NCBI RefSeq assembly: GCF_024505045.1
Contig: NZ_JANIBM010000003.1
Span: 186,001 to 250,000 of the forward strand
Direction of reading: 5' to 3'
DNA from: Methylomonas aurea
GTDB taxonomy: Bacteria > Pseudomonadota > Gammaproteobacteria > Methylococcales > Methylomonadaceae
DNA: 64,000 nt
Positions 33,625 through 61,468 of the stretch are shown here, one piece after another. The first letter of the stretch is position 1; each line of letters starts with the position of its first letter. Position numbers and translations under genes: made by a program. The notes under the pieces are model-generated. The model was not told the DNA's origin and ran no database searches. It was given only the letters and a program-made list of their open reading frames with translations.

Positions 33625-34362
33625 ATGGACGTTGCACAAAAGCTGTCATTAGCCGAAAGCTTTAGTCGCTATTTTAAGGTTTCCTTAGCGGAAACCGTTG
33701 CTCAAAAACAGCAAGTCTTTCGAATAAGATACAGAGTGTATTGCGAAGAATTTAAGTATGAATCGCAGGAGCATTTTATAGACCAACTCGAGGTTGACGA
33801 GTACGATCAAATTTCCCGCCATTGTTTGATTACGCACGTCCAAACCGGCTTGCCCGCCGGTTGCGTCAGGTTGGTTCCCGCATTGGGCGCTGAATCCGAA
33901 GCTCCGTTGCCATTGGAAAAATACTGCGGCAAAAGCTTGGACCGCAATGCGCTGGGCAAACTTGAGCTTGACAGGAGCACGGTGTGCGAAATTTCCAGAT
34001 TGGCGGTCGATGGGGCTTTTCGCAGAAGGACGGGTGAGAGCTTGACTCGTTTCGGCGAAATTAATGGGTTGCATTTCTCCGCGCAAGAACAGAGGACTTT
34101 TTCGAGTATTGCGGTCGCGTGTTTTTTTGCTGCAACCGTTTTGACAGAAATCGATAGGCGAACCAACGTGTTTGCTATGATGGAGCCGTTTTTACCGAGA
34201 ATGATGCATCGGTCAGGTATTGATTTTCAGCGGGTCGGTAGAGACATTGACTATCATGGCATTCGCGCACCCTACTTTATTACAACGCAATCGGTGTTGG
34301 CAAACATGCATGCGGAGTTGCGCGAGCTGTATACATGGATCAAACAAAACATCGCTGAATGA
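33625..34362 (+). CDS. XrtA/PEP-CTERM-associated acyltransferase (copy 2)
   Basis: A 245-residue protein of the same family as the product at 28774-29559, with QQVFRIRYRVYCEEFKYE near residue 30, PAGCVRLVPAL and CEISRLAVDGAFRRR. The two copies share the family pattern but differ widely, so they are not a recent duplication. It has a fair purine-rich ribosome site before the ATG. It lies 32 bases after the cyclic-nucleotide-binding gene and 40 before prsT. Acyl-CoA or acyl-ACP dependent N-acylation is the family-level guess. Confidence 0.87.
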   Translation: MDVAQKLSLAESFSRYFKVSLAETVAQKQQVFRIRYRVYCEEFKYESQEHFIDQLEVDEYDQISRHCLITHVQTGLPAGCVRLVPALGAESEAPLPLEKYCGKSLDRNALGKLELDRSTVCEISRLAVDGAFRRRTGESLTRFGEINGLHFSAQEQRTFSSIAVACFFAATVLTEIDRRTNVFAMMEPFLPRMMHRSGIDFQRVGRDIDYHGIRAPYFITTQSVLANMHAELRELYTWIKQNIAE

Positions 34363-44749: not shown

Positions 44750-45769
44750 ATGATCAAATTGCTAGAGCCCGCCCAAGCAGAGGTTTGGGATAACTATGTC
44801 ATGGCGGCAGCCGGCGGTAGTTTTTTTCACTTGGCGGCTTGGCAGCAAGTAATAAAGCGGGCGTTCGGACATCCGACTTATTACTATTACTGCGAGCAGG
44901 ATGGCCAGGTAACCGGGGTCTTGCCATTAACGCATATCAAAAGTGTACTGTTTGGCAACAGCTTGGTTTCTAATGCCTTTTGTGTTTACGGCGGTATCCT
45001 GGCGAGTAACGACCAAGCGTTTCAGGCTTTACAGGCCCAAGCTCAGCAATTAGCCCGCGATTTAGGTGTCGATTGTTTGGAGATGAGAAACCGCCAACAG
45101 GCGCATCCCGATTGGCCGCATAAAGAACTATACGTCACATTCAGAAAGGAGCTCGATCCTGACGTTGAAAAGAATCTAAATGCGATCCCGCGTAAACAGC
45201 GGGCAATGGTCAGAGCAGGTATCAAGGCCGGTCTGGGTAGTGTGATCGACGATAATGTCGATCGCCTTTACGCTGCCTATTCGGAAAGTGTCAGAAATCT
45301 GGGTACGCCGGTTTTTCCGAAAAAATATTTTCAAATATTGAAAGATGTTTTTGGCAAAGATTGCGAAATTCTGACCGTTGAACATGAAGGACGCTTGATT
45401 GCCAGTGTCATGAGTTTTTATTTCATGGACGAAGTATTGCCGTATTACGGTGGAGGCGTGGACGCTGCCCGCGATTTAAAAGGTAACGATTTTATGTATT
45501 GGGAAGTCATGCGGCGTGCGGTGGAAAAAGGCTGCAAGATTTTCGATTACGGCCGGAGCAAAATCGGTACCGGATCCTATCGGTTCAAAAAACATTGGGG
45601 TTTCGAACCCGAGCCACTGTTCTACGAAATCGATTTGGTAGCCGCAAAACAAATTCCTGAAATCAATCCGCTGAATCCAAAATACCAACTTTTTATAGCC
45701 GCCTGGAAAAAGTTGCCGCTTCCAATAAGCCAATTGATTGGACCTTGGTTGGCCAAAGACTTGGGTTAA
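44750..45769 (+). CDS. FemAB-like protein of the XrtA system
   Basis: A 339-residue protein with tandem GNAT-like folds of the FemAB family (TIGR03019 type). It begins IKLLEPAQAEVWDNYVMAAAGGSFFHLAAWQQVI and contains RKQRAMVRAGIKAGL and KGCKIFDYGRSKIGTGSYRFKKHWGFEP. FemAB proteins move aminoacyl groups from tRNA to an amine; in exosortase loci an aminoacyl or acyl decoration of the polymer is thought possible. It starts two bases after the deacetylase stop, so a deacetylated amine could be its acceptor; that is inference. Confidence 0.92.
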   Translation: MIKLLEPAQAEVWDNYVMAAAGGSFFHLAAWQQVIKRAFGHPTYYYYCEQDGQVTGVLPLTHIKSVLFGNSLVSNAFCVYGGILASNDQAFQALQAQAQQLARDLGVDCLEMRNRQQAHPDWPHKELYVTFRKELDPDVEKNLNAIPRKQRAMVRAGIKAGLGSVIDDNVDRLYAAYSESVRNLGTPVFPKKYFQILKDVFGKDCEILTVEHEGRLIASVMSFYFMDEVLPYYGGGVDAARDLKGNDFMYWEVMRRAVEKGCKIFDYGRSKIGTGSYRFKKHWGFEPEPLFYEIDLVAAKQIPEINPLNPKYQLFIAAWKKLPLPISQLIGPWLAKDLG

Positions 45770-48130: not shown

Positions 48131-50023
48131 ATGTGCGGCGTAGTAGGTATTTTCGATATTCGGGGATTGAGCGAAATAGACCGCAGTTTGCTGTCGCGCA
48201 TGAACGAATCCCAGTTCCATCGCGGCCCGGATGAGGGGGGACTGCATACCGAACCAGGCTTGGGATTCGGCCATCGCCGGTTATCGATCATCGACCTGTC
48301 CAGTGGACAGCAACCGATGCACAGCCAGGACGGGAACGTTGTCTTAACCTATAACGGCGAAGTCTACAATTTTCCGGAATTGCGTTTGGAACTTGAAGCG
48401 TTGGGGTATGGCTTTAGAACGCATTGCGATACGGAAGTAATTTTGTATGCTTGGCAGGCTTGGGGAGAAGCTTGTGTCGAACGCTTGCGCGGTATGTTTG
48501 CTTTTGCCATTTGGGACAGAGTCAAGCAAACCTTGTTCCTGGCACGCGATCGCCTTGGCGTCAAGCCGCTGTTTTATGCGGAATTACCGAATGGGCATTT
48601 TATTTTCGGTTCGGAGTTGAAGGCGTTAACCCAACACCCATTGTTGCCGAAAGATCCCGATCCAACAGCGATAGAGGACTATTTCAGTTTTGGCTATATC
48701 CCAGATCCGAAAACTATCTACCGCGGCGTCTACAAATTGGAGCCTGGTTACTGCTTGACCATTAAGCGGGGCGACGTAAATTTTCGACCCAAACAATATT
48801 GGGACGTTACGTTTAAACCGGTTGCTAACGTCAATGCAGTCGAGGCGGGCGAGGAATTAGTTTCCCGCTTACGCGAAGCGGTAAAAATTCGGATGGTTGC
48901 AGATGTGCCGTTGGGAGCGTTTTTATCCGGCGGCGTCGATTCCAGCGGCGTTGTGGCGCTGATGGCGGGTTTGTCGGATGATCCGGTGAATACCTGCTCA
49001 ATTTCGTTTGGTGATCCAAAGTTTAATGAGTCGGAGTTTGCTGCCAGAGTGGCCGAGCGCTACCATACTGCCCATCGCGTAGAGCAGGTCGATCCGGACG
49101 ACTTTAGTTTGATCGAACAGCTTGCCGGTTTATACGACGAACCTTATGCCGACAGCTCTGCTTTGCCGACTTATCGGGTGTGCGAATTAGCCAAAAAGCA
49201 AGTCACGGTAGTGCTGTCGGGTGACGGTGGCGACGAGAATCTTGCCGGATATCGCCGCTACCGTTGGCATACCTACGAAGAACGCATGCGATCGATCTTG
49301 CCGGACGCTTTGCGTATGCCGTTGTTTTCTACACTTGGCAAGGTGTATCCAAAACTGGACTGGGCGCCGAAGGTGTTTCGCGCCAAAACGACGTTGGAAT
49401 CTATCGGCAGGGATTCAATGGCCGGTTATTTCCATAGTGTCTCGGTGTTGCCGAATGCGATGCGAGCGGAATTGTTCAGCGAGCGTTTGAAGCGCGATTT
49501 GCAAGGTTATCAGGCTGTCGAAGTGTTTCATCGTTACCGTGAGACCGCTCCAGACGATCCGTTGTCGATGGTTCAATATCTCGATCTAAAAACTTATTTG
49601 GTTGGGGATATACTGACCAAAGTCGACAGAGCCAGTATGGCGCATGCGCTGGAAGTGCGTGTACCGCTGTTGGATCACAAGTTAGTGGAATGGATGGCTA
49701 CGTTACCGCCGGATTTGAAGTTAAAAGGACGAGAAGGCAAATACGTTTTCAAGAAAGCATTGGAACCCTATTTGCCATATGACATTCTGTACAGACCGAA
49801 AATGGGATTTTCGGTGCCGCTATCCGCTTGGTTCAGGGGGCCTTTAAAACAGCGCGTACGCGATACGTTGCTTGGCGATACGCTACAGAACACCGGTTGG
49901 TTTGACAGTGGTTATTTGCAACACATCGTTAGCCAGCATCAATCTGGATTGCGCGATTACAGTGCGCCCATTTGGTCATTATTGATGTTTGAGGCGTTTC
50001 TGAGGAATAATTTGGTTGGATGA
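48131..50023 (+). CDS. XrtA-associated amidotransferase (asparagine synthase family)
   Basis: A 630-residue class II glutamine amidotransferase. The nucleophile Cys2 is intact (MCGVVGIFD), with HRGPDEGG and YNGEVYNFPELR in the glutaminase domain; the synthase domain has the PP-loop SGGVDSSGV and the SGDGGDENLAGY motif. GGAGAG precedes the ATG. This family (TIGR03108) is standard in exosortase-A loci and probably amidates a uronic acid of the polymer rather than making asparagine. A second, degenerate relative is at 56893-58674. Confidence 0.94.
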   Translation: MCGVVGIFDIRGLSEIDRSLLSRMNESQFHRGPDEGGLHTEPGLGFGHRRLSIIDLSSGQQPMHSQDGNVVLTYNGEVYNFPELRLELEALGYGFRTHCDTEVILYAWQAWGEACVERLRGMFAFAIWDRVKQTLFLARDRLGVKPLFYAELPNGHFIFGSELKALTQHPLLPKDPDPTAIEDYFSFGYIPDPKTIYRGVYKLEPGYCLTIKRGDVNFRPKQYWDVTFKPVANVNAVEAGEELVSRLREAVKIRMVADVPLGAFLSGGVDSSGVVALMAGLSDDPVNTCSISFGDPKFNESEFAARVAERYHTAHRVEQVDPDDFSLIEQLAGLYDEPYADSSALPTYRVCELAKKQVTVVLSGDGGDENLAGYRRYRWHTYEERMRSILPDALRMPLFSTLGKVYPKLDWAPKVFRAKTTLESIGRDSMAGYFHSVSVLPNAMRAELFSERLKRDLQGYQAVEVFHRYRETAPDDPLSMVQYLDLKTYLVGDILTKVDRASMAHALEVRVPLLDHKLVEWMATLPPDLKLKGREGKYVFKKALEPYLPYDILYRPKMGFSVPLSAWFRGPLKQRVRDTLLGDTLQNTGWFDSGYLQHIVSQHQSGLRDYSAPIWSLLMFEAFLRNNLVG

Positions 50024-50110
50024 TTTTTCGGTCTTGTACGAGCGTGCAATAGACACGTTTAGTTCTCTTTGCTAAAGTGTGAAGAGGTTCAAATAATTAG
50101 GGTGATTGAC

Positions 50111-50746
50111 ATGAAATCAAATGACCGAAAACCGGAGCAAGCCACTGATTCAAGCGATGAAAATCGGTCGGTAGTTAAATCCAGACGTTCATTCGCCAAG
50201 GCCGGAATCGTTTCCCCGCTGGTCATGACGCTTATAAGCCGTCCGGCGATGGCCGGAGGCGTCTGTTTTTCTCCGTCCCGTTCATTGTCTAAGAACACAA
50301 GCGTTTCGCAAAATGGGAATTACGGTGAGTGTAACGGTATTTCGCCTGGAAATTACAAAACGCAGACGAATCCGTTGATGCCTTCTTATAATTGGCCTTC
50401 CTCAGTTCCGCCTAGCACGCCATTCCATCCTCTGTTCAAGAGGGGCAGTACTGCTAAAGGCACATTGTTTGAAACGGGGACCGGTCTTAATCTTCGTAGC
50501 CGGACGCTACTAGAAGTGCTTGGCCTAAATGGATCTGGCGATCCTTCCAAACTAGCCTTTCATACCATTGGTGCCTACTTAAATTGCGTAAATGGTTTTA
50601 TTCCAACAAATGTCCTTACCAAAGAAAAAGTTGTATCGATCTGGGAAGAATATGTTACGAACGGTTTTTATGAACCGTTTGCAGGGGTTAAATGGTATGC
50701 AGGGGATATCGTGTCTTATTATCAGACCAATTATATTGCCCCTTAG
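50111..50746 (+). CDS. Tat-exported small protein of the HPr-rel-A neighbourhood
   Basis: A 211-residue protein with no family name that I can give. The start at 50111 is chosen because AGGG lies about nine bases upstream. An acidic N-terminus is followed by a twin-arginine signal, SRRSFAKAGIVSPLVMTLISRPAMA, with cleavage likely after AMA. The mature part has two early cysteines (GGVC and GEC), an SPGNYKTQ segment and a helical C-terminal half (LLEVLGLNG, KLAFHTIGAYLNC). From memory, proteins with an SRR-type Tat signal and a C-x(n)-SPGYWK pattern accompany HprK-related kinase A genes in other polysaccharide loci. It may be the substrate of the next genes. That is inference. Confidence 0.7.
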   Translation: MKSNDRKPEQATDSSDENRSVVKSRRSFAKAGIVSPLVMTLISRPAMAGGVCFSPSRSLSKNTSVSQNGNYGECNGISPGNYKTQTNPLMPSYNWPSSVPPSTPFHPLFKRGSTAKGTLFETGTGLNLRSRTLLEVLGLNGSGDPSKLAFHTIGAYLNCVNGFIPTNVLTKEKVVSIWEEYVTNGFYEPFAGVKWYAGDIVSYYQTNYIAP

Positions 50747-50757
50747 CCGACTCGAGG

Positions 50758-51027
50758 ATGGCCGTTAAAGACCGCTTTGCGGAGCTTAAAGCATATTTTT
50801 TTGAAGATGGCGGTGTAATATTTGATCGCAGCTCGGGGTATACCTACAGATTGGATTCATTAACATTGTCGGTGTTTGCAGCTGTTGAGCGCCTTGCTAG
50901 CGATCTTGAAACTGGGAATGAACAACAACTGGCCGAACGTGTTGCAACTATGCGCTCCGATTATTCAATTGATGATATTACGCAAGCTTTGGCTCAATTG
51001 AAGCGGGTTTCTATTTTGTCAGATTGA
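50758..51027 (+). CDS. PqqD-like peptide-binding protein, HPr-rel-A system
   Basis: An 89-residue protein. The pattern FFEDGGVIFDRSSGYTYRLDSLTLSVFAAVERL is that of PqqD-like domains, the RiPP recognition element fold that binds leader peptides. The ATG at 50758 is chosen; GAGG is directly before it, closer than normal. In the HPr-rel-A set (TIGR04353 type) this small gene always precedes the HprK-related kinase, and here the stop overlaps the possible TTG start of that gene. It may present the Tat-signal protein to the kinase. Confidence 0.8.
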   Translation: MAVKDRFAELKAYFFEDGGVIFDRSSGYTYRLDSLTLSVFAAVERLASDLETGNEQQLAERVATMRSDYSIDDITQALAQLKRVSILSD

Positions 51028-51953
51028 TTATTGTGGCAAATAATATTGGTCGTATCTCGCAACTGACTTTAGCGCAATTTGCTAGTTTTATTAAACAGGG
51101 AAATTTAGCAATTAGAATTGGAGAAATGACTTTTAAGTGTCGCTCGGAGTTTTCCTCCGTAGCGCATTCCCTTCATACCCTTTACACTAACCATCCATTT
51201 CAACTCAATCCTGATTTTGCGGATTTCCATGTGGAAATTTCTGCGCCCAGCAATCTGAGGCGTTGGTTTCGTCGCCAATCGGAATTTGTAATTGATGGCG
51301 AAAAGCCATTTGAGCCACTTCCCCTGAGTCAAGCGCCAGCCTTGCTGGAATGGGGGCTGAATTGGATTATCGTGGCCTCATGTCATCAATGGTTTACGAT
51401 CCACGCAGCGTCTCTTGAACGTAACGGTCAGGCGGTAATTTTTCCAGCACCTCCCGGCACAGGCAAAAGCACGCTATGCGCTGCTCTTGCATTCCGCGGA
51501 TGGCGTTTACTATCAGATGAACTTACCCTGCTGGATTTGGAAACGCTGGAGGCTAAAGCCCTGGCCCGGCCTATCAACCTAAAGAATGCCTCTATCGATA
51601 TTATTCGGGAATTCGTGCCGCAAGCAATTTGGGGACCTGAGGTTTTCGATACAACCAAAGGTCGAGTAACCCATGTTGCACCACCCGAAGAGAGCGTCGT
51701 CAGAATGTTGGAACATGCTGTGCCGCGTTGGATCATTTTTCCTAAGTATGTCGCTGGCGCCGAACCTTGTCTTTCGCCGCGCGATAAGTCGCAAACCTTT
51801 ATTGACTTGGCAGACAATGCTTTCAATTACAGCGCATTGGGAGAAGCGGGTTTCGATTTGGTGGCTAGGCTTGTCGATCGTTGCGATTGCTACGATTTTG
51901 TTTACAGCCAACTCAAAGATGCTATCGATGTTTTTGATTCGCTAACGGGGTAG
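51024..51953 (+). CDS. HprK-related kinase A
   Basis: A protein of up to 309 residues related to the HPr serine kinase/phosphorylase. The C-terminal domain has FTIHAASLERNG, the P-loop PAPPGTGKST (141-150 from the first start) and RLLSDELTLLDLE. The N-terminal 120 residues are unlike HprK proper. The start is uncertain: TTG at 51024 overlaps the PqqD stop, GTG at 51033 would be nine bases shorter at the end; no better signal is seen. It lacks the HPr/PTS partner genes, so the target should be another protein or peptide. Related kinases in lasso-peptide clusters phosphorylate the precursor. Confidence 0.85.
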   Translation: MIIVANNIGRISQLTLAQFASFIKQGNLAIRIGEMTFKCRSEFSSVAHSLHTLYTNHPFQLNPDFADFHVEISAPSNLRRWFRRQSEFVIDGEKPFEPLPLSQAPALLEWGLNWIIVASCHQWFTIHAASLERNGQAVIFPAPPGTGKSTLCAALAFRGWRLLSDELTLLDLETLEAKALARPINLKNASIDIIREFVPQAIWGPEVFDTTKGRVTHVAPPEESVVRMLEHAVPRWIIFPKYVAGAEPCLSPRDKSQTFIDLADNAFNYSALGEAGFDLVARLVDRCDCYDFVYSQLKDAIDVFDSLTG

Positions 51954-51957
51954 TCGA

Positions 51958-53085
51958 ATGGCTCTTACTGCAAAAGCCAACGACTTGACTGGTCGACAAT
52001 TATTAGTCAACGCTCTGCAAAACCCGGTTTGCTTATCTGAGTTACCGCTAGCCAAGTGGGATACTTTAATTAGGCTGGCTAGAGTCAGCAATTTAATCGG
52101 GCGGCTAGCTGAGGCGATCGATACTGTCAAATTAACGTCGCACGTTCCCGATAAAGCCCTCCCTCATCTGGTCTCGGCTCGTTTGTTGGCCAATCACCAG
52201 CGGCAAGCTATTCGCTGGGAAGTGAAGCATTTGGGGGATGCGTTGAATTCTCTGGACGCACCCAAGGTGCTGCTCAAAGGCGCCGCTTACGCAGTGCAAA
52301 GTTTAGAGGCTGCCGGTGGGCGAGTGTTTGGAGATTTGGATCTGTTAGTTCCAAAGACTGCTATTCCTGCGGCAGAGGCTGCCTTGATGTTAAAGGGATG
52401 GGGAGCAGAGGGCGTTGATTCCTATGATCAGCGCTACTATCGCGAGTGGATGCATGAAATCCCTCCAATGGTCCATCGAGGAAGAGGAACTGTGGTTGAT
52501 TTGCATCATAATATTTTGCCCCTCACCGCACGCTACTGCCCAACGATTGAGCTGTTTTTTGCAGACGCCGTGCCTTCCTCTGTACCGGGATTCCAGGTTT
52601 TGTCCCCCGTGGATATGGTGATTCACAGCGCTACCCATTTGTTTTATGAGAGTGAAATGCGTAATGGATTGCGTGATTTATTCGACTTGGATGCTTTGAT
52701 TCGGCAGTTTTCACGCGACCGAACCGAGTTTTGGCCTCTCCTCGCCGAACGTACCGATGCGATTGGCCTCAATTGGCCTGTGTTTCTAGCGCTATCTTGT
52801 TTACGAGATATTTTGGGTGCTTATGTTCCGGAGGAATTTTTTCAACGTATCAGAGTTAATGCCAATTTAGGTTCAATGCCAGAGGTGTTTCTTACCAAGC
52901 TATACTACTGGGCAGTTTGGCCGAAGCATCCTTTGATCGATAATTTGCCATCTCGGTTGAGCCGTTTTTTGGTGTATATAAGAGGGCATTACTTGCGTAT
53001 GCCGCTGCGCTTGCTGCTGCCCCATCTCTCGCGTAAGGCTTTGGGTAGGCTATATAAAAGTGGTAGTGGCTCCGACCATCGATAA
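51958..53085 (+). CDS. nucleotidyltransferase-fold protein (PF14907-like)
   Basis: A 375-residue protein of the NTP_transf_5 type. The signature PKVLLKGAAYAVQSLEAAGGRVFGDLDLLVP contains the two Asp of a polymerase-beta-like GDLDxL metal site, followed by TVVDLHHNI. The remainder is helical (SATHLFYESEMRNGLRDLFDLDAL). Proteins of this kind are often encoded beside HprK-related kinases in polysaccharide and in lasso-peptide loci. It might transfer a nucleotide or a phosphosugar, but the reaction is unknown. The ATG follows the kinase stop by four bases. Confidence 0.85.
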   Translation: MALTAKANDLTGRQLLVNALQNPVCLSELPLAKWDTLIRLARVSNLIGRLAEAIDTVKLTSHVPDKALPHLVSARLLANHQRQAIRWEVKHLGDALNSLDAPKVLLKGAAYAVQSLEAAGGRVFGDLDLLVPKTAIPAAEAALMLKGWGAEGVDSYDQRYYREWMHEIPPMVHRGRGTVVDLHHNILPLTARYCPTIELFFADAVPSSVPGFQVLSPVDMVIHSATHLFYESEMRNGLRDLFDLDALIRQFSRDRTEFWPLLAERTDAIGLNWPVFLALSCLRDILGAYVPEEFFQRIRVNANLGSMPEVFLTKLYYWAVWPKHPLIDNLPSRLSRFLVYIRGHYLRMPLRLLLPHLSRKALGRLYKSGSGSDHR

Positions 53086-53134: not shown

Positions 53135-54340
53135 ATGAAAATACTGCATATTCTTGACCACTCCATTCCATTGCACAGCGGCTATACCTTCCGGACGCGG
53201 GCTATTTTGGAGCAGCAGCGCAAACTGGGCTGGGACACTTACCATGTGACTTCCGCCAAACATCTGGGCGCCGCTACGGATTTGGAAGAGGTTGACGGTT
53301 TGAGTTTTTACCGTTCGGCTAAGCCTCAGGAGTGGATAGCCAATCTCCCGGTTGTTAACCAGTGGGCTATAGTTGAAAGCCTTTATCGGCGTTTGGATCA
53401 AATCATCCCCCAAATCAAGCCTGATGTTTTACATGCCCACTCGCCGGCGTTGAACGGTTTAGCCGCTTTGAGGCTGGCAAAAAAATATCGATTGCCATTA
53501 GTCTACGAATGCAGAGCGTTTTGGGAAGATGCGGCCGTTGATCACGGTACCACGCAAGAAGCTAGCGTCCGCTACCGCTTGACCCGATATCTGGAAACAT
53601 ATGTATTCAAAAACGCCGATGCGGTGACTACAATTTGCGAGGGCCTGCGGGGAGACATCATTGGGCGCGGTATTGCTGCTGACAAAATTACCGTCATTCC
53701 CAATGCCGTGGATCTCGACAAGTTTAGTTGCGGCGAGTCGGCGGATCCAGATCTGCTGCAGCACTTGGGACTGCGCGATAGAATCGTGTTGGGGTTTATC
53801 GGGTCGTTTTATGCTTACGAGGGTCTGCTGTTATTGCTGGACGCGCTGCCGGAGATTGCCAAGCATCAACCGAACGTGCGTTTACTATTGGTAGGTGGTG
53901 GGCCTCAACAAACTCAAATTGCCGAAAAAATTGCGGCGCTCGGTTTACAGGAATGGGTCGTGATGCCGGGACGGGTGTCGCACGATCAAATTCAGAGTTA
54001 TTACAACTTGGTGGATATTTTTATATACCCTCGATTATCGATGCGGTTAACCGATCTTGTTACGCCGTTAAAGCCTTTAGAAGCAATGGCGCAAGGTCGT
54101 GTAGTGATTGCATCTGATGTAGGGGGGCATAAGGAGCTGATTCTAGACAAGGAAACTGGGTACTTGTTTAGAGCTGGAGACAGCGTAGATCTCGCTAAAA
54201 CAGTAATTAACGTAATCAATCTCGGCAATATTGAGAAAATACGTGCAGACGCCAGAAGCTTTGTCGAACAAGAGCGGAGTTGGAGCAAAAGTGTGGCTCG
54301 GTATTCCGAAGTGTATGGCAGATTTTCGGCAAGCAATTAA
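53135..54340 (+). CDS. exosortase A-associated glycosyltransferase (Daro_2409 family)
   Basis: A 401-residue GT-B family 4 glycosyltransferase. The opening MKILHILDHSIPLHSGYTFRTRAIL and PLVYECRAFWEDAAVDHG are distinctive of the TIGR04063 group linked to exosortase A. The donor site reads TPLKPLEAMAQGRVVIASDVGG. It shows that the HPr-rel-A genes are embedded within the exosortase-type locus and not merely next to it. No clear ribosome site is seen before the ATG. Confidence 0.92.
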   Translation: MKILHILDHSIPLHSGYTFRTRAILEQQRKLGWDTYHVTSAKHLGAATDLEEVDGLSFYRSAKPQEWIANLPVVNQWAIVESLYRRLDQIIPQIKPDVLHAHSPALNGLAALRLAKKYRLPLVYECRAFWEDAAVDHGTTQEASVRYRLTRYLETYVFKNADAVTTICEGLRGDIIGRGIAADKITVIPNAVDLDKFSCGESADPDLLQHLGLRDRIVLGFIGSFYAYEGLLLLLDALPEIAKHQPNVRLLLVGGGPQQTQIAEKIAALGLQEWVVMPGRVSHDQIQSYYNLVDIFIYPRLSMRLTDLVTPLKPLEAMAQGRVVIASDVGGHKELILDKETGYLFRAGDSVDLAKTVINVINLGNIEKIRADARSFVEQERSWSKSVARYSEVYGRFSASN

Positions 54341-54459: not shown

Positions 54460-55533
54460 ATGCACATCGGATTGATAGGACCTCTGCCCCCCCCTTTCGG
54501 AGGGATGGCAAATCAAACAAAGCAATTAAGTGCCTTGCTAATTTCCGAAGGCTTGAAAGTAACAGTGGTCCGGACTAATGCAGATTATCGATGGTCTTGG
54601 GTGTCGAATTTGAAGGGATTAAGGGCCTTGGCGCGCCTGCTACCTTATGTGCTGGAGCTTTGGCGGTTGGCTGGAAACGTAGATTGTATGCATGTCATGG
54701 CGAATTCTGGATGGTCATGGCAGCTTTACGCAGCGCCAGCAATTTGGATTGGATGGATTAGAAAAGTCCCCGTTGTAGTCAATTATCGCGGTGGAGACGC
54801 AGAACGTTATTTCAAGGCCTCAATGCGCTGGGTGGCTCCCTCTCTGAACAGAGCCTCTGAAATTGTGGTCCCATCAATGTTTCTCGTTAATGTGTTCGAC
54901 CTTTTTGGTTTTAAGGCCAAAATCATACCGAATATTATAAATTTAGAACGGTTTAAATTCAGATCTCGCAATATATCTGATGATAGAAATCTTCGGTTGG
55001 TGGTTACACGCAATTTGGAGAAAATATATGGAATTGATACGGCTATACATGCTGTCGCTATTTTGAAATCAACTTTACCTGATGTAAAAATCGTAATAGC
55101 AGGTTCAGGTCCTTTGCGGGATGAATTGGTAGCTTTGACGGAAGCGCTAGAGTTATCCCATAGTGTTGAGTTTGCCGGAAAATTAGAGCCGGAAGATGTC
55201 GCTAAACTCTACTACGAGGCTGATATAATGTTAAATCCGTCTACCGTAGATAATATGCCAAACTCCGTTTTAGAGGCGTTGGCATGCGGTTTACCTGTGG
55301 TTACAACCAATGTTGGCGGAATACCTTTTATTGTCAAAGATAATGAAAGTGCCTTAATTGTTAAACCTAATAATCCCCAAATGCTGGCGGATGCAATACT
55401 CAAATTAGTTAATAATTCTGATTTATACCATAAGCTGGCTGTTAACGGTTTTGCTGTGGCAAAGCAGTATGGGTGGGTCGCGGTCAAGGAGCAATGGCTT
55501 GGATTGTATAAGGAGTTGATAAATGCAGAATGA
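54460..55533 (+). CDS. glycosyltransferase family 4 protein
   Basis: A 357-residue GT-B glycosyltransferase, starting MHIGLIGPLPPPFGGMANQTKQL and with the donor site NPSTVDNMPNSVLEALACGLPVVTTNVGGIPF. It is clearly more AT-rich than the gene that follows, which may point to separate origin. A 119-base gap without a gene precedes it. The stop overlaps the start of the adenylating enzyme gene by 11 bases, so the two are coupled. The sugar is not known. Confidence 0.9.
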   Translation: MHIGLIGPLPPPFGGMANQTKQLSALLISEGLKVTVVRTNADYRWSWVSNLKGLRALARLLPYVLELWRLAGNVDCMHVMANSGWSWQLYAAPAIWIGWIRKVPVVVNYRGGDAERYFKASMRWVAPSLNRASEIVVPSMFLVNVFDLFGFKAKIIPNIINLERFKFRSRNISDDRNLRLVVTRNLEKIYGIDTAIHAVAILKSTLPDVKIVIAGSGPLRDELVALTEALELSHSVEFAGKLEPEDVAKLYYEADIMLNPSTVDNMPNSVLEALACGLPVVTTNVGGIPFIVKDNESALIVKPNNPQMLADAILKLVNNSDLYHKLAVNGFAVAKQYGWVAVKEQWLGLYKELINAE

Positions 55534-56878
55534 TGGCTACACCTGGCTGTGTTCGAACATTATTTTTCCTGTTCATGAGGCTTTTAAAAGACACAATACC
55601 GTTGCACTGAGAAAACAGATGGAGATTAGCCAGTGGCTAACACCTGATAAAATTAAATATCGGCAACTAGAAAGCCTGCGTCGGTTTTTGAATGATGTCA
55701 ATATTCATGTTCCTTATTACCGTCGTTTGTTCGAACGATTAAGTTTTGATGTTACTAATATCAGCAGTACAGACCAGTTAACGAAATTACCCTTATTGAC
55801 CAAGTCGGATATAAGGACTCATTTAGATGAGCTTAAGGCCGACGATGCAATTGGTTTGGCCAGATTCAACACCGGCGGCTCAAGCGGAGAGCCGCTGATT
55901 TTCTATATCGGCAGGCGCCGCGTCAGCCACGACGTCGCCGCTAAGTGGCGGGCAACTCGCTGGTGGGGCGTCGATATCGGCGATCCGGAGGCGGTGATTT
56001 GGGGTTCGCCGATAGAGTTGGGTGCCCAAGATAAAATTCGTCTGGTGCGAGATAAACTGTTACGGACGCATTTAATTCCCGCATTCGAAATGTCGGCGGA
56101 AAAAGTCGACGGTTTCATTCGCCAATTACAGCGTATCAAACCCAAAATGTTGTTCGGTTACCCTTCGGCTTTGGCCCATATTGCCAGCCGCGCCGAACAA
56201 ACCGGAGTGAGGGTGGATGGTTTGGGTGTGAAGGTGGCCTTTGTTACCTCCGAACGACTTTACGATCACCAGCGGGAAAAAATCGAGAGCGTGTTCGGCT
56301 GTCCGGTGGCAAACGGTTACGGCGGCCGCGATGCCGGTTTCATTGCTCACCAGTGTCCACAGGGCGGCATGCATATTACGGCGGAAGATATAATCGTCGA
56401 GATCGTGGATAAAGACGGCAAGCCCTTGCCTAAAGGCGAATTGGGCGAAATCGTCGTTACCCATTTGGCAACCCGCGACTTTCCTTTCATTCGTTACCGT
56501 ACCGGCGACATGGGGATATTGTCCGAGAAAATTTGCGGATGCGGCCGCGGTTTGCCGCTACTGGAAGAGATCCAGGGGCGCACGACCGACTTCGTGGTCG
56601 CGCTCGACGGCACCATACTGCACGGTTTGGCTTTGATCTATGTCCTTCGCGATCTGGAAGGTGTCGAGGCTTTTAAAATTACCCAAGAAAGTCTGGATAA
56701 AACCACGGTACAAATCGTTAAATCCGCCAATTACCGAGAAGATGCTGAGCATAAAATCGTCGCGGAATTTAAAAAACGCCTCGGCCAGGCGGTGACGGTA
56801 AATATTGAATATACCGATTACATTCCCAAAGAGCGGTCCGGCAAATTTCGGTATGTGATCAGCCACGTAAAACCATAA
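55523..56878 (+). CDS. PaaK/CapK-like adenylate-forming enzyme
   Basis: A 451-residue member of the phenylacetate-CoA ligase-like ANL family. The phosphate loop is FNTGGSSGEPLIF, followed by NGYGGRDAGFIAHQCPQGGMH, FIRYRTGDMG and the C-terminal SGKFRY loop; CGCGRG suggests a metal site seen in many PaaK relatives. Within capsule loci such proteins (CapK) are thought to activate an acyl or amino acid group for polymer decoration. The next gene, a synthetase of the asparagine-synthase family, could use a similar substrate. Base composition changes from AT-rich to GC-richer around 55.85 kb within this gene. Confidence 0.87.
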   Translation: MQNDGYTWLCSNIIFPVHEAFKRHNTVALRKQMEISQWLTPDKIKYRQLESLRRFLNDVNIHVPYYRRLFERLSFDVTNISSTDQLTKLPLLTKSDIRTHLDELKADDAIGLARFNTGGSSGEPLIFYIGRRRVSHDVAAKWRATRWWGVDIGDPEAVIWGSPIELGAQDKIRLVRDKLLRTHLIPAFEMSAEKVDGFIRQLQRIKPKMLFGYPSALAHIASRAEQTGVRVDGLGVKVAFVTSERLYDHQREKIESVFGCPVANGYGGRDAGFIAHQCPQGGMHITAEDIIVEIVDKDGKPLPKGELGEIVVTHLATRDFPFIRYRTGDMGILSEKICGCGRGLPLLEEIQGRTTDFVVALDGTILHGLALIYVLRDLEGVEAFKITQESLDKTTVQIVKSANYREDAEHKIVAEFKKRLGQAVTVNIEYTDYIPKERSGKFRYVISHVKP

Positions 56879-56892
56879 TTTCTACAGCAGCT

Positions 56893-58674
56893 ATGACAAA
56901 ATTTGCGGGATGGATGGGGGCAGTTTCCGAAACGGGGGCGGCGATTGCGACACTTGGGCAAATGGCTGGACAGATTCACGGTGATCCGTGTATTGGGTCG
57001 GGTTACGCTTTGCTGGCGGACTCGGCAAATTGCCGGCGAAGCGGCGACGTGTTATTGCTTGCTTTGCAATCGGCATATCCTTCCGACGGATTGGCGTTAT
57101 TGCTTGACGCCTATCTAAGCCAAGGTATCGATGGCTTGCTGCAAAGGCCTGATGTGATCAATTTAGTAGTGATTGATGAGCGGCAACAAAAAGTGTTTTT
57201 GGTAACCGATCCGATTGGACTAAGCCATATTTACTACGCGGAAACCAAAGATAGGCTGGTGTTTGGATCCAGCGCCGATTTCGTCGTGCGCCACCCTTAC
57301 GTGAGCAATGCAATATTGCCGCAGTCGGTTTTCGATTATGTCTATTTCAACCATTGCCCCAGCCCGAACACCATTTACCGGCAGGTTAAAAAATTAGAGG
57401 GCGGACAGTGTTTACGTTACCACAATAGCCAAATTGAAATCGAACGCTACTGGCAGCCCGAGTTTTCTGAAATTGATTGCGACTTACGCCAATCTGGGCG
57501 GGATTTGCAACAATCTTTGATCGAAGCCGTAAAACAGCGGGTCGGTGCCGAAGAGAATACCGGTGCATTTCTGAGTGGCGGCTTGGACAGTTCTAGCGTT
57601 GCCGGAGCGTTAGCGCGAGTATTCCCGGGCAAGGCCAAGACGTTTTCGATGGGATTTCAAGTCGCTGGATACGATGAAATCGAATACGCCAACATTGCGG
57701 TAGCCGCGTTTAATACCCGCTCCCATGTTTATTATGTTACCCCGGAAGATACCGTTAATGCCGTGCCGGCGATTGCAGCATATTATGACGAGCCGTTCGG
57801 CAATTCATCGGCGCTCGCCGCCTATTACTGCGCGAAGCTGGCAAAAGAGAGTGGTGTGAATCGGCTTTTGGCCGGTGACGGCGGGGACGAAATTTTTGCC
57901 GGCAATGAGCGCTATGCCAAGCAGATGTTGTTCGAGGCTTACCATCGCTTCCCGAAGTTTATGGCAAGAGGATTCGAAGGCATGTTGGGTGGCTTGCCCA
58001 ATGCGATCGCCAAGCAGAAAATTCCATTCAAAATAAAAAGATATGTCGAACAGGCCAATGCGCCGATGCCTGATCGCTTGCAAGATTACAATTTCTTGCA
58101 CCGGCATGCCGCTGCTGATATTTTTCAGGCCGACTTTTTGGCCCAAGTCGATTCCACAGCTCCGTTATTTTCCTTACGGGAAAGTTACTGGCGGCCGGCA
58201 AATGCTAGCACTTTGAACCGCATGCTTTATATGGATTGGAAAACGACGCTGCACGATAACGATCTGGTGAAGGTCAATCGGATGTGCGAAATGGCTGGAG
58301 TCGAAGTTTGTTATCCGTTGCTCGACCAACGCATAATCGACTTATCTTGCCGAATTCCGTCGGCCGACAAACTCCGAGGCCAGAAACTGCGCTGGTTTTA
58401 CAAACAGGCAATGGCCGATTTCTTGCCCGAACCCATCATCAATAAATCCAAACACGGTTTCGGATTGCCGTTCGGCATTTGGCTGAAAGACCACGAGCCT
58501 TTGAAACAAATGGCGTACCAAGCCGTTCGCGATTTGGGAAAGCGGGAGTTTTTTCAGCCGGAATTTCTGGAACACGCAATCAAGATGCATCAAAGTGTTC
58601 ACGCGGCTTATTACGGCGAACTGATATGGATACTGATGATGCTGGAGTTTTGGTTTGTCGGGAAAGGCTACTGA
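56893..58674 (+). CDS. asparagine synthase homologue lacking the glutaminase cysteine
   Basis: A 593-residue asparagine-synthase-family protein. The N-terminus reads MTKFAGWMGAV instead of MCGI, and the upstream codons offer no Cys start, so the nucleophile that releases ammonia from glutamine is absent. The HRGPD-type motif is also lost. The synthase half is intact, with PP-loop SGGLDSSS (228-235) and LLAGDGGDEIFAGNERY. Such proteins adenylate a carboxylate and let an amine attack, as in beta-lactam synthetase or lasso-peptide cyclase. The gene ends the polysaccharide/HPr-rel-A block. An amide or lactam on a sugar or peptide is plausible; no product can be named. Confidence 0.88.
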   Translation: MTKFAGWMGAVSETGAAIATLGQMAGQIHGDPCIGSGYALLADSANCRRSGDVLLLALQSAYPSDGLALLLDAYLSQGIDGLLQRPDVINLVVIDERQQKVFLVTDPIGLSHIYYAETKDRLVFGSSADFVVRHPYVSNAILPQSVFDYVYFNHCPSPNTIYRQVKKLEGGQCLRYHNSQIEIERYWQPEFSEIDCDLRQSGRDLQQSLIEAVKQRVGAEENTGAFLSGGLDSSSVAGALARVFPGKAKTFSMGFQVAGYDEIEYANIAVAAFNTRSHVYYVTPEDTVNAVPAIAAYYDEPFGNSSALAAYYCAKLAKESGVNRLLAGDGGDEIFAGNERYAKQMLFEAYHRFPKFMARGFEGMLGGLPNAIAKQKIPFKIKRYVEQANAPMPDRLQDYNFLHRHAAADIFQADFLAQVDSTAPLFSLRESYWRPANASTLNRMLYMDWKTTLHDNDLVKVNRMCEMAGVEVCYPLLDQRIIDLSCRIPSADKLRGQKLRWFYKQAMADFLPEPIINKSKHGFGLPFGIWLKDHEPLKQMAYQAVRDLGKREFFQPEFLEHAIKMHQSVHAAYYGELIWILMMLEFWFVGKGY

Positions 58675-58809
58675 ACAGAAGTTGCAGGGTGACAAAAAAC
58701 GTCAGTTTTGGCCAAGATTCAGATTGTCGTTTGGGTGTGGCAAATAGCGGACGGGGGCAAGTTGCCGTCTTATCGCCCGAGCCCAGCCAAGTCTGCGGCA
58801 TCAATCGAT

Positions 58810-58826
58810 TTGGCACGTAAATTGTA
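58810..58826 (+). promoter_or_regulatory. sigma-54-type promoter of the pilin gene
   Basis: TTGGCACG-TAAA-TTGTA matches the -24/-12 consensus TTGGCACG-N4-TTGCA with the correct spacing and one change (T for C in the -12 GC). It lies 46 bases before the pilin ATG, giving an untranslated leader of roughly 35 bases. Type IVa pilin genes are usually RpoN/PilR dependent. Confidence 0.75.
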
Positions 58827-58872
58827 TTGTTCTTCCCGAGTTTCAATCCCGTTAACTTTTAAGGAAGTTTTT

Positions 58873-59349
58873 ATGAATATGCAATTACAAAAATCACAAC
58901 AAGGTTTTACCTTGATCGAATTAATGATCGTGGTCGCGATCATTGGTATATTGGCTGCAATCGCCATTCCGGCATATCAAGACTACACGGTTAAATCCAA
59001 AGTCTCCGAAGGTCCAAGTTTGGCGTCTCCGGCGTTGACGGCTGGAGGTGTAGCCTGTAGCGAACAGACTTTGGCCAGTGGGCTTACAAACGGCGACATG
59101 GGATTAAGTACTGCAACAGCAATTACCGGTAAATACGTTAGCGCCGTTACCTTCAGCGGTACAAGTGCTACAGGTGCTACGGTAACAATCCAGTACAAAA
59201 AGATTGGTAGTTCGGTTGACTCTAATGCCACTGTAGTTTACCGGGGTATTTGCACTCCGGGAACAGGCATGGCTTGGTACACCACTACAACGCCGACCTC
59301 GACCACTTTCAATGGTACGGTTTCAGCTAAGTATCAGCCTAAGTCTTAA
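58873..59349 (+). CDS. pilA: type IV major pilin
   Basis: A 158-residue prepilin. The ATG at 58873 follows AAGGAAG; an upstream open frame is not coding. The leader [11 protein letters not shown] ends in the prepilin peptidase site G11|F12, followed by [24 protein letters not shown] with Glu5 of the mature protein. The globular part is Thr/Ser-rich, with two cysteines (C62 and C127) that can form a disulfide, and it ends in Ser (KYQPKS). It is exported and polymerised into pili by a type IV machine encoded elsewhere. A sigma-54-type promoter and a strong terminator frame the gene, so it is monocistronic. Confidence 0.95.
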
Positions 59350-59350
59350 T

Positions 59351-59370
59351 CGATTTAATTCGATTTAATT
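59351..59370. repeat. tandem duplication of a 10-base unit after pilA
   Basis: CGATTTAATT occurs twice without gap directly between the pilA stop codon and the terminator hairpin. It is too short to be a mobile element and may be slippage. Confidence 0.8.
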
Positions 59371-59373
59371 TGT

Positions 59374-59397
59374 AAAGGGGGCATTGCCCCCTTTTTT
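59374..59397 (+). terminator. Rho-independent terminator of pilA
   Basis: AAAGGGGGC and GCCCCCTTT pair perfectly around an ATT loop and run into a TTTTTT tract. It lies 25 bases after the pilA stop. Confidence 0.92.
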
Positions 59398-59437
59398 ATT
59401 TTTCAAAGGTTTTGCAAGTTATAATCGCTGAATTTAA

Positions 59438-61468
59438 ATGAAAGCTTCATTTCAGAGTGATCGGGAAAATATTATTTTATGCATTATGTTGTCATTTGCT
59501 TTAATGGCGGCGGTTTTTGTGGTTTATCTGCCGGGTAAGGATGGCCCCTTTTTGGCAGATGACTTCCCCAATATTCTAGACAACAGTGGCATACAATTAC
59601 ATAGCCTTAGTCTTAATGAGTTGAGTGCTGCTTGGAGCGCAAATAATAGCAGTGGGCCACTGAAGAGGCCTGTGGCTAGCTTGAGTTTTGCACTCAACTA
59701 TTATTTCTCCGATCAGAAGTTTAATCCGATTCCCTTCAGGCTAACTAATATTGCAATTCATGCAGTGAACGGTATTTTGCTGTTCTTTTGCGTTCTGTTT
59801 TTGATTCGCGCATACGATAAATCTGCTCCTGCCAAAATAATAGCGTTCTGGAGTGCGTTAATCTGGTCGTTGCATCCCTTACAATTAACTTCAGTGTTAT
59901 ACGTTGTGCAACGTATGAATAGTTTGGCTTGTCTTTTCATGCTGGTGGGATTTCTTGTGTTTTTGAAAGGCAGGATGAGTCTGAACAAGCCGACTGGTTA
60001 TATCCTTATGTGGGGAGGGGCAATAGGCGGAACTATTTTGGGAGGGTTATGTAAGGAGAATGCACTCTTGTTGCCGCTTCTTATTTTTATTAGTGAAGTA
60101 ACTTTGTTGCCCTCCATTGATTGTAGGAAAACGCGATTACGACTGTTAATCTATTATTCTATTATTGCCATTATCCCTGTTCTGATATTAATTGGATACT
60201 ATACATTTTTTCCAAAATATCTTTTGCAAGGTTATACGGTTCGGAATTTCAATTTGATAGAGCGACTGCTGACCGAAGCTAGGGTCTTGTTTTATTACCT
60301 TAGGTTGCTGTTTTATCCTGATAATACCGAATTAAGTTTGGCGCATGATGATTTTTTGATTAGTAGAGGTTTGTTTTTGCCAAAAACCACTTTTTTTGCA
60401 GTGGTTTGTGTGTTTTTTTTAATTGGTGTTGCGATAAATAGTAATGTGAGAAAAAAATATGCATTTGCTAGTTTTTCGATTTTGTGGTTTCTTGTTGGGC
60501 ATTTAATGGAATCCACTGTTTTTCCGCTTGAGCTAGTGTACGAACATCGTAATTATCTTCCTAGTATTGGCGTTATCATTGGTTTTGTTTTTCTGTCTTA
60601 TAAAACGCTTGAAGCTCGAGCCAGTAAACTGATGGTGAACAGTTTTTATATTTCTATTGCTATTAGCGTGGCTTTCGTAACATATGCACGGGCCGCTGTG
60701 TGGTCAAACACAAATAGCTTTACTTATTTTGAGGTTAGAAATCATCCCGAGTCGATGCGTGCTAATAGTGCATATGCAAAGAATCTTGAACTAAGAGTTG
60801 GCGCTAACCCCGAAAGTTATAGCCACTTAATAAAAGCATCTCAACTCGATATGTTTGAGGTGTCTACATTAATTGATATGTTTATCGAGCTTAATAGCTT
60901 TATCCATTCTCTGGATATCCCTCAAGTAAATGAAAATGTTGTTTTGCCCAGTCGTTACGATGATCCGTTAGTACTCGAGAAAAACTATATCGAGTCTTTA
61001 ATGCAATTGGTTAACGATGAAATAATGAGACGGCTGGCCGATAAGACTTTTTCTCTGCGGACCATGACTTCAATCCGTTCGGCAGCGAATTGCGTAATAG
61101 ATCAACACCATATGTGCCAGGGAATCGGTCCCAGTGTGTTGCAATGGATTGCCGGGGCAATTAACCAACCCGGATTTTCTCATGTGCCGATGATGTATCT
61201 GATTCAAGCCAAGATTAATTTCTTCTTAGGGAACCAGGAACAGGCCTGGGATGGCTTGAATCAGGCTATTTCACTGTATCCAACTTGGATGTATCTGCGT
61301 GCTGAGAAAGCACATTTGTATGTTGTTCTGAACGATTTCGAAAAGGCGGAGCAAACTTTGCAGGAGGCTGAAGCCTTGGGTGTGGCTACTGGGCATGATC
61401 TGAAGGAATTTCAGAAACTTAGAGATGTCATGTCAAGCCTGAAGGCGGGGAATGGGGTTGGCAACTGA
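59438..61468 (+). CDS. GT-C-like membrane glycosyltransferase with C-terminal TPR region
   Basis: A 676-residue integral membrane protein with about ten helices in the first 430 residues, then a soluble region of TPR-like helices (ending EKAHLYVVLNDFEKAEQTLQEAEAL). The acidic pair in the first periplasmic loop (FLADDFPNI) and the segments YVVQRMNSLACLFML and CKENALLLPLLIFISE match the GT-C/TMTC-type mannosyltransferase layout. Its place directly after pilA resembles that of pilin O-glycosyltransferase genes. An O-antigen-polymerase-like role is the alternative. The gene is AT-rich compared with its neighbours. Start ATG at 59438, after the pilA terminator, so it needs its own promoter. Confidence 0.75.
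   Translation: MKASFQSDRENIILCIMLSFALMAAVFVVYLPGKDGPFLADDFPNILDNSGIQLHSLSLNELSAAWSANNSSGPLKRPVASLSFALNYYFSDQKFNPIPFRLTNIAIHAVNGILLFFCVLFLIRAYDKSAPAKIIAFWSALIWSLHPLQLTSVLYVVQRMNSLACLFMLVGFLVFLKGRMSLNKPTGYILMWGGAIGGTILGGLCKENALLLPLLIFISEVTLLPSIDCRKTRLRLLIYYSIIAIIPVLILIGYYTFFPKYLLQGYTVRNFNLIERLLTEARVLFYYLRLLFYPDNTELSLAHDDFLISRGLFLPKTTFFAVVCVFFLIGVAINSNVRKKYAFASFSILWFLVGHLMESTVFPLELVYEHRNYLPSIGVIIGFVFLSYKTLEARASKLMVNSFYISIAISVAFVTYARAAVWSNTNSFTYFEVRNHPESMRANSAYAKNLELRVGANPESYSHLIKASQLDMFEVSTLIDMFIELNSFIHSLDIPQVNENVVLPSRYDDPLVLEKNYIESLMQLVNDEIMRRLADKTFSLRTMTSIRSAANCVIDQHHMCQGIGPSVLQWIAGAINQPGFSHVPMMYLIQAKINFFLGNQEQAWDGLNQAISLYPTWMYLRAEKAHLYVVLNDFEKAEQTLQEAEALGVATGHDLKEFQKLRDVMSSLKAGNGVGN

Follow-up and report, generated by a model that had tools for sequence, protein, structure and literature searches.

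The protein encoded at positions 56893-58674 of the window, the stretch of 64,000 nucleotides of Methylomonas aurea DNA analyzed here, was found to belong to an AsnB-type family in which the residues of the glutamine pocket have been lost. For this protein and its family the label ASD was coined here. As judged from sequence, ASD combines an intact ATP/synthetase half with a glutaminase half that is predicted to be non-functional, and it is, with a probability of roughly 0.6, an ATP-dependent amide synthetase of the exosortase A (XrtA) exopolysaccharide pathway that uses nitrogen from a source other than glutamine. The features of the gene and of its surroundings are collected in Table 1.

Table 1. 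Features of ASD and of the gene cluster around it (positions in the window).
Feature	Position	Strand	Remarks and basis
ASD, putative glutaminase-dead AsnB-type amide synthetase	56893..58674	+	593 aa; AlphaFold2 model and profile searches
N-terminal Ntn-type domain, residues 1-195	56893..57477	+	fold retained, glutaminase residues gone
C-terminal synthetase domain, residues 200-593	57490..58671	+	PF00733, 265.4 bits; omega 0.045-0.066
PP-loop SGGLDSSS, residues 228-235, ATP pyrophosphate site	57574..57597	+	sequence, alignment
GDGGDEIFAG, residues 328-337	57874..57903	+	aligned with AsnB SGEGSDE motif 346-352
T-L-x-D-N-D, residues 452-457, ASD-specific, near acceptor site	58246..58263	+	87-row alignment
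Lys520, aligned with AsnB chain Lys449	58450..58452	+	K in 87/87 ASD rows
PaaK/CapK-like adenylating enzyme, frequent neighbor	55523..56878	+	profile searches, neighborhood
GT4 glycosyltransferase	54460..55533	+	profile search
TIGR04063 PEP-CTERM/XrtA system glycosyltransferase	53135..54340	+	615 bits, cut-off 442
TIGR03108 XrtA/PEP-CTERM amidotransferase	48131..50023	+	1075 bits, cut-off 816.9; intact MCG, NGE, D; internal control
TIGR03019 FemAB family XrtA-associated protein	44750..45769	+	496.9 bits, cut-off 260
TIGR03694 exosortase-associated acyltransferase, cluster head	33625-34362		226.7 bits
Four-gene cassette	50069-53085		exported protein, PqqD-like, HprK-related kinase A, NTP_transf_5
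Type IV pilin-like gene, then 676-aa putative repeat-bearing membrane protein	58708-61468		directly 3' of ASD

It was initially annotated that Thr instead of Cys follows the initiator Met of ASD and that no alternative start gives an MCG opening, and both observations were confirmed. The open reading frame begins ATG-ACA (MTKFAGWMG), the 28 codons of open frame 5' of this start contain no ATG, GTG or TTG, and none of the start codons examined, as far as codon 40 of the gene, stands directly before a Cys codon. The motifs SGGLDSSS and GDGGDEIFAG are retained, as had been stated. S228, G229, G230, D232, S233 and S234 of the PP-loop (SGGxDSS) are invariant in a 44-row alignment and the GDGGDE-type motif is invariant in 87 rows, which marks ASD as an AsnB-type protein. 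The match to the Pfam profile Asn_synthase (PF00733), with its gathering cut-off of 21 bits, is well beyond chance, while GATase_7 (PF13537) reached 23.2 bits, below its cut-off of 25, and covers residues 90-129 only. In NCBIfam ASD passes no family cut-off: the top match, TIGR03108, has 276.8 bits and thus falls 540 bits short, TIGR01536 (glutamine-hydrolyzing asparagine synthase) has 233.8 bits (cut-off 267.1) and NF033535 (lasso peptide cyclase) 137 bits (cut-off 525). ASD is an unnamed subfamily, without a curated name at present. The genome encodes four substantial asparagine-synthase-type genes, and the paralog at 48131, for which Cys2 had been reported, does keep it: the MCGVVG start, RRLSI, NGE and CDTE are all present.

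Homologs were searched in the source genome and 60 relatives (61 genomes, 36 of the relatives being of the same genus) as well as in a named genome collection, and ASD homologs of 38-91% identity were found in these genomes. Membership was defined by a cut-off of 525 bits, which is our own choice; the next profile matches below the members lie at 360-364 bits, with the exception of L071, a fragment with 470 bits. ASD was found in 54 of 369 genomes of a class sample and in 8 of 398 genomes of a phylum sample, one of the latter lying outside the class. Carriage on plasmids was rejected, as the plasmid collection contained no ASD match at E<=1e-80. Exosortase A was detected over its cut-off in 73 of the 369 genomes, comprising 49 of the 54 ASD carriers and 24 of the 315 non-carriers, which corresponds to an odds ratio of 119 for genomes that are mutually non-independent. 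The carriers without XrtA over the cut-off are G399, G407, G537, G594 and G610, although G594 and G399 do show exosortase matches below it. In the source genome the XrtA gene is not located beside the EPS cluster (33625-58674): the match over the cut-off is on another contig (G000:C2:173482-174255) and a weaker exosortase match is on contig C4.

The catalytic columns, which we take from AsnB to be the residues needed for glutaminase activity, were counted in 87 distinct full-length ASD members and 48 other AsnB-type proteins. For this set identical core sequences were collapsed, ORFs shorter than 520 aa were excluded and two rows lacking an in-range start were dropped (L126_0, an ASD member, and L065_2); starts were assigned automatically, which leaves them uncertain for the most divergent rows. 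Residue 2 of the ASD members is most commonly T (38), followed by S (13), G (7), A (5), P (4), Y (3) and R (3), and more rarely K, V, D or Q (2 each) or H, I, L, N, C or F (1 each). The sole Cys2 belongs to L122, which opens MCLVSK, not MCG, and has an uncertain start call. The column of the Arg-bearing RRL loop is a gap in 87/87 members, N and E of NGE are each kept in 2/87 and the Asp of CDTE in 7/87, whereas the 48 other AsnB-type rows show Cys in 37, Arg in 40, N in 41, E in 41 and Asp in 47. The G of NGE is retained in 59/87 members, which we read as a probably structural role. As a control of sequence quality, the TIGR03108-type proteins of the same genomes open MCGIVG. Homologs with an MCG start were sought as a refutation and none was found among the 87; a wrong start call or a local sequence error that removed Cys was rejected and carries virtually no weight, as there is no upstream start and 86 of the 87 homologs share the same state. 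The proposal of a dead glutaminase domain was thus borne out and extends beyond Cys2, since the entire glutamine pocket is lost in the family and constraint on it is relaxed (see below). This excludes a direct supply of nitrogen from glutamine via the N-domain of ASD itself. As Thr and Ser dominate position 2, they were also considered as Ntn nucleophile replacing Cys; this was rejected because G, A, P, Y, R, K, D and others are found there too and the pocket is gone. In the gammaproteobacterial members L122, L124, L125 and L126 the N-domain is reduced even further (open frames of 524-585 aa), as if the dead domain keeps eroding.

The AlphaFold2 model of ASD, built with the 44-row alignment, has a pLDDT of 92.2 and a pTM of 0.91, and structures were compared also by Foldseek. 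The N-domain keeps the Ntn fold: it aligns from residue 2 with 1ct9 and 7ylz, and glutaminase domains of the 1xff type align over residues 2-189. The best solved match is TsnB9 (7ylz; Z 29.8, 512 residues), a hydroxyamidotransferase that acts in trichostatin biosynthesis and, although the closest structure, is only 21% identical. It is followed by AsnB from E. coli (1ct9; Z 26.7, 438 residues) and human ASNS (Z 25.5-25.9). ASD and AsnB have in common the two-domain fold, the ATP motifs and the Lys449 equivalent, but ASD lacks Cys1 and the glutamine pocket and carries PFGNSS in place of the AsnB segment with Arg325. Beta-lactam synthetase (1jgt, 1m1z; Z 24.8-25.4) and carbapenam synthetase CarA (1q15, 1q19; Z 23.6-24.3) lie below TsnB9 and tie with or fall below AsnB, which indicates a shared fold only, and a shared fold by itself shows no function. 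The glutaminase half of beta-lactam synthetase and CarA is dead, and ASD shows the same combination of an AsnB fold with a degenerate, apparently non-working glutaminase half. However, the identity is low (15-21%) and the pathway is different. The Tyr-Glu dyad of beta-lactam synthetase lies outside the sequence alignment of ASD with 1jgt.

On the acceptor side ASD differs consistently from the XrtA amidotransferases. L453, N456 and D457 are present in 87/87 ASD rows, while the counterpart is Y-L-x-G-D-I in 17/17 XrtA amidotransferases (the 18-row tree clade minus L136). In the same manner, G303, N304, N338, N456, D457, L499, R500 and K518 in all 87 ASD members correspond to A, D, Y, D, I, G, K and R in all 17 XrtA amidotransferases; K520 is present in both. 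The TIGR03108 enzymes (eps_aminotran_1; WbpS/WbqG-like) and ASD thus share the AsnB architecture, the gene clusters, SGG[LV]DSS, GDGGDE and the lysine, but ASD is without the glutaminase pocket, forms a clade of its own and has these acceptor-side residues changed throughout. We read this as an acceptor site that was probably re-set once, for one new reaction.

Given the invariance of its ATP motifs and lysine, the C-terminal domain would adenylate a carboxylate, as AsnB does, and the degenerate N-domain, having lost the pocket for glutamine hydrolysis, probably provides structural support only. From its genomic context, the carboxylate is most likely part of a glycan precursor, e.g., a uronic acid, or of an acyl or amino-acid group that substitutes the polysaccharide. 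The acyl-adenylate would most likely be attacked by an amine on a second substrate, e.g., an amino sugar or an amino acid. Beta-lactam synthetase and lasso cyclases use an amine rather than ammonia. Because of this analogy, the intact paralog next door and the re-set pocket, an amine is favored over free ammonia as presumptive nitrogen donor by about three to one. The alternative is that the same adenylation is followed by attack of free ammonium, so that ASD would be a uronamide synthetase that depends on ammonia and whose glutaminase was lost as ammonium was plentiful. It was reported that AS-like glutamine users accept ammonia in vitro, PesC being such an enzyme (PMC13060819), and the product would match the known WbpS uronamides (PMC7468200). 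However, a glutamine-dependent intact paralog is encoded in the same cluster, all 87 members share the same set of pocket residues distinct from those of this paralog, which suggests another reaction, and ASD spans at least 54 of the 369 class-sample genomes, probably not one ammonium-rich niche; we consider this alternative unlikely, if worth keeping in mind. As to the preferred amine-dependent synthetase, its most specific form remains rather speculative: a glycan-tailoring amide ligase that would join the carboxylate of a sugar or acyl-amino acid to the amine of a second building block, giving the XrtA-linked polysaccharide an amide bridge and possibly forming the compound onto which PEP-CTERM proteins are attached by exosortases.

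The gene order in Methylomonas is TIGR04063 glycosyltransferase, GT4, PaaK and ASD. As had been noted, a PaaK/CapK-like enzyme adjoins ASD, its gene ending 14 bases before the ASD start codon. More distant ASD loci have the TIGR03097 O-ligase, a deacetylase, a sulfotransferase and XrtA-associated hydrolases as neighbors, with varying direct adjacency to ASD, and beyond Methylococcales the ASD gene is frequently alone in its orientation. A close PaaK ortholog was found in 24 of 54 ASD carriers compared to 3 of 24 XrtA genomes without ASD, and a PaaK match at E<=1e-80 in 34 of 54 compared to 4 of 24; the Fisher values of 0.009 and 0.0002 are indicative only, as the genomes are related. At the named genome loci PaaK is present in 19 of 34, several of the remaining loci being on short contigs. 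An obligatory pair was rejected: the close ortholog is missing from 30 of 54 carriers, and therefore ASD and PaaK need not work together. PaaK/CapK is a frequent but dispensable companion of ASD and would act as an accessory activating enzyme, often but not always alongside it.

Upstream of the glycosyltransferases, the cassette at 50069-53085 encodes a 225-aa exported protein without family match and with a Tat-like SRRSFAK signal (our own motif reading), a PqqD-like protein under the cut-off of TIGR04353 (22.6 bits, cut-off 35), an HprK-related kinase A (TIGR04352, 383 bits) and NTP_transf_5. Between Methylomonas strains this separable cassette diverges far faster than its neighbors, which looks like allelic replacement within a conserved operon. 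On the other side of ASD, the pilin-like gene and the gene of the 676-aa protein, which has no Pfam or NCBIfam match, are present at some Methylomonas loci but not at all of them.

In a quick tree of 74 rows, which comprised 26 of the 87 ASD members and six lasso cyclases and left out beta-lactam synthetase and CarA, ASD forms a single clade with 100% SH-aLRT, to which neither the lasso cyclases nor the TIGR03108 proteins belong; some other rows are on long branches and their placement is unsure. The phylogeny that had been suggested as a check thus gave ASD a clade separate from the XrtA amidotransferases and no special kinship with the six lasso cyclases. The initial annotation had compared ASD with beta-lactam synthetase and lasso cyclases, and of this the analogy and the shared fold stand, whereas a special kinship with lasso cyclases found no support. 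The AS family includes both lasso cyclases and beta-lactam synthetase (PMC13060819). ASD and the lasso cyclases are alike in superfamily, and MSG replaces MCG in the six lasso cyclases, but these keep the Asp in the glutamine pocket that ASD has lost. With the separate clades and the NF033535 score, a lasso cyclase identity was rejected. It was also considered whether ASD is a RiPP-type cyclase that would close a lactam or isopeptide bond within a peptide or protein substrate of the cassette at 50069-53085. Although ASD shares its superfamily with lasso cyclases and a PqqD-like protein, an HprK-related kinase A and NTP_transf_5 are encoded a few genes upstream, we regard such a function as highly improbable, as ASD lies outside the lasso clade and the cassette is dispensable, no HprK or NTP5 match being found beside ASD in, e.g., L057, L059, L061, L063, L066 and L069. 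A requirement of ASD for the HprK/PqqD/NTP5 cassette was rejected on the same loci.

Selection acts differently on the two halves of ASD. In six Methylomonas pairs omega is 0.24-0.38 for residues 1-85 (value defined in five pairs) and 0.045-0.066 for residues 200-593 (defined in four), saturated pairs having yielded no value. Among pairs whose synthetase domains are 55-65% identical, the N-domain identity is 33% for ASD members (311 pairs) compared to 56% for the XrtA paralog (62 pairs from the 17 XrtA amidotransferases). Relaxed constraint is confined to residues 1-85, and purifying selection on the synthetase half is strong; the contrast in omega and identity therefore indicates that the glutamine pocket was freed from selection and the synthetase was not. 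A pseudoenzyme that regulates or scaffolds other EPS enzymes and performs no catalysis would fit the loss of catalysis in the N-domain, but every ATP-site motif and Lys520 are invariant and omega of the synthetase domain is about 0.05, which makes such a role very unlikely.

Our literature search found no description of asparagine synthases with a dead glutaminase half from exosortase clusters and no biochemical or genetic evidence for ASD, and the main text of Haft (2006) mentions neither an amidotransferase nor asparagine. For Porphyromonas gingivalis it was reported that the amidotransferase WbpS makes the uronamide of a linking sugar, with a wbpS deletion being tested (PMC7468200). The same paper notes VimA-like proteins, deacetylases and TIGR03108 proteins at exosortase loci. 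An exosortase-type cluster of Rubrivivax contains wbpS (10407), CapK (10410) and one more asparagine synthase (10435), and transposon insertions in each of these were recovered when mutants were screened for loss of autoaggregation (PMC3684757). The asparagine synthases of Rubrivivax gelatinosus psc1 include RGS1_10423 besides RGS1_10435. EPS genetics were reported for Methylomonas sp. LW13 (PMC11072679 and PMC5874918), and a study of polysaccharide bands in this strain disrupted the gene of an exosortase-type N-acyl amino acid synthase (PMC11072679). The ASD relative of this strain (L041) is 72% identical and is encoded in the same cluster. With such a close relative and working polysaccharide genetics (PMC11072679), the prediction is directly testable.

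Exosortase-linked systems are common among environmental bacteria and among organisms that form flocs and biofilms, yet little of the chemistry of their polysaccharides has been worked out. The intact paralog at 48131 would use glutamine to make an ordinary uronamide. A conserved synthetase that is incapable of using glutamine beside this glutamine-capable paralog predicts that ASD makes a second, different amide in these polymers, which would concern the slime and EPS clusters bearing ASD in methane-eating Methylomonas and in many related bacteria.
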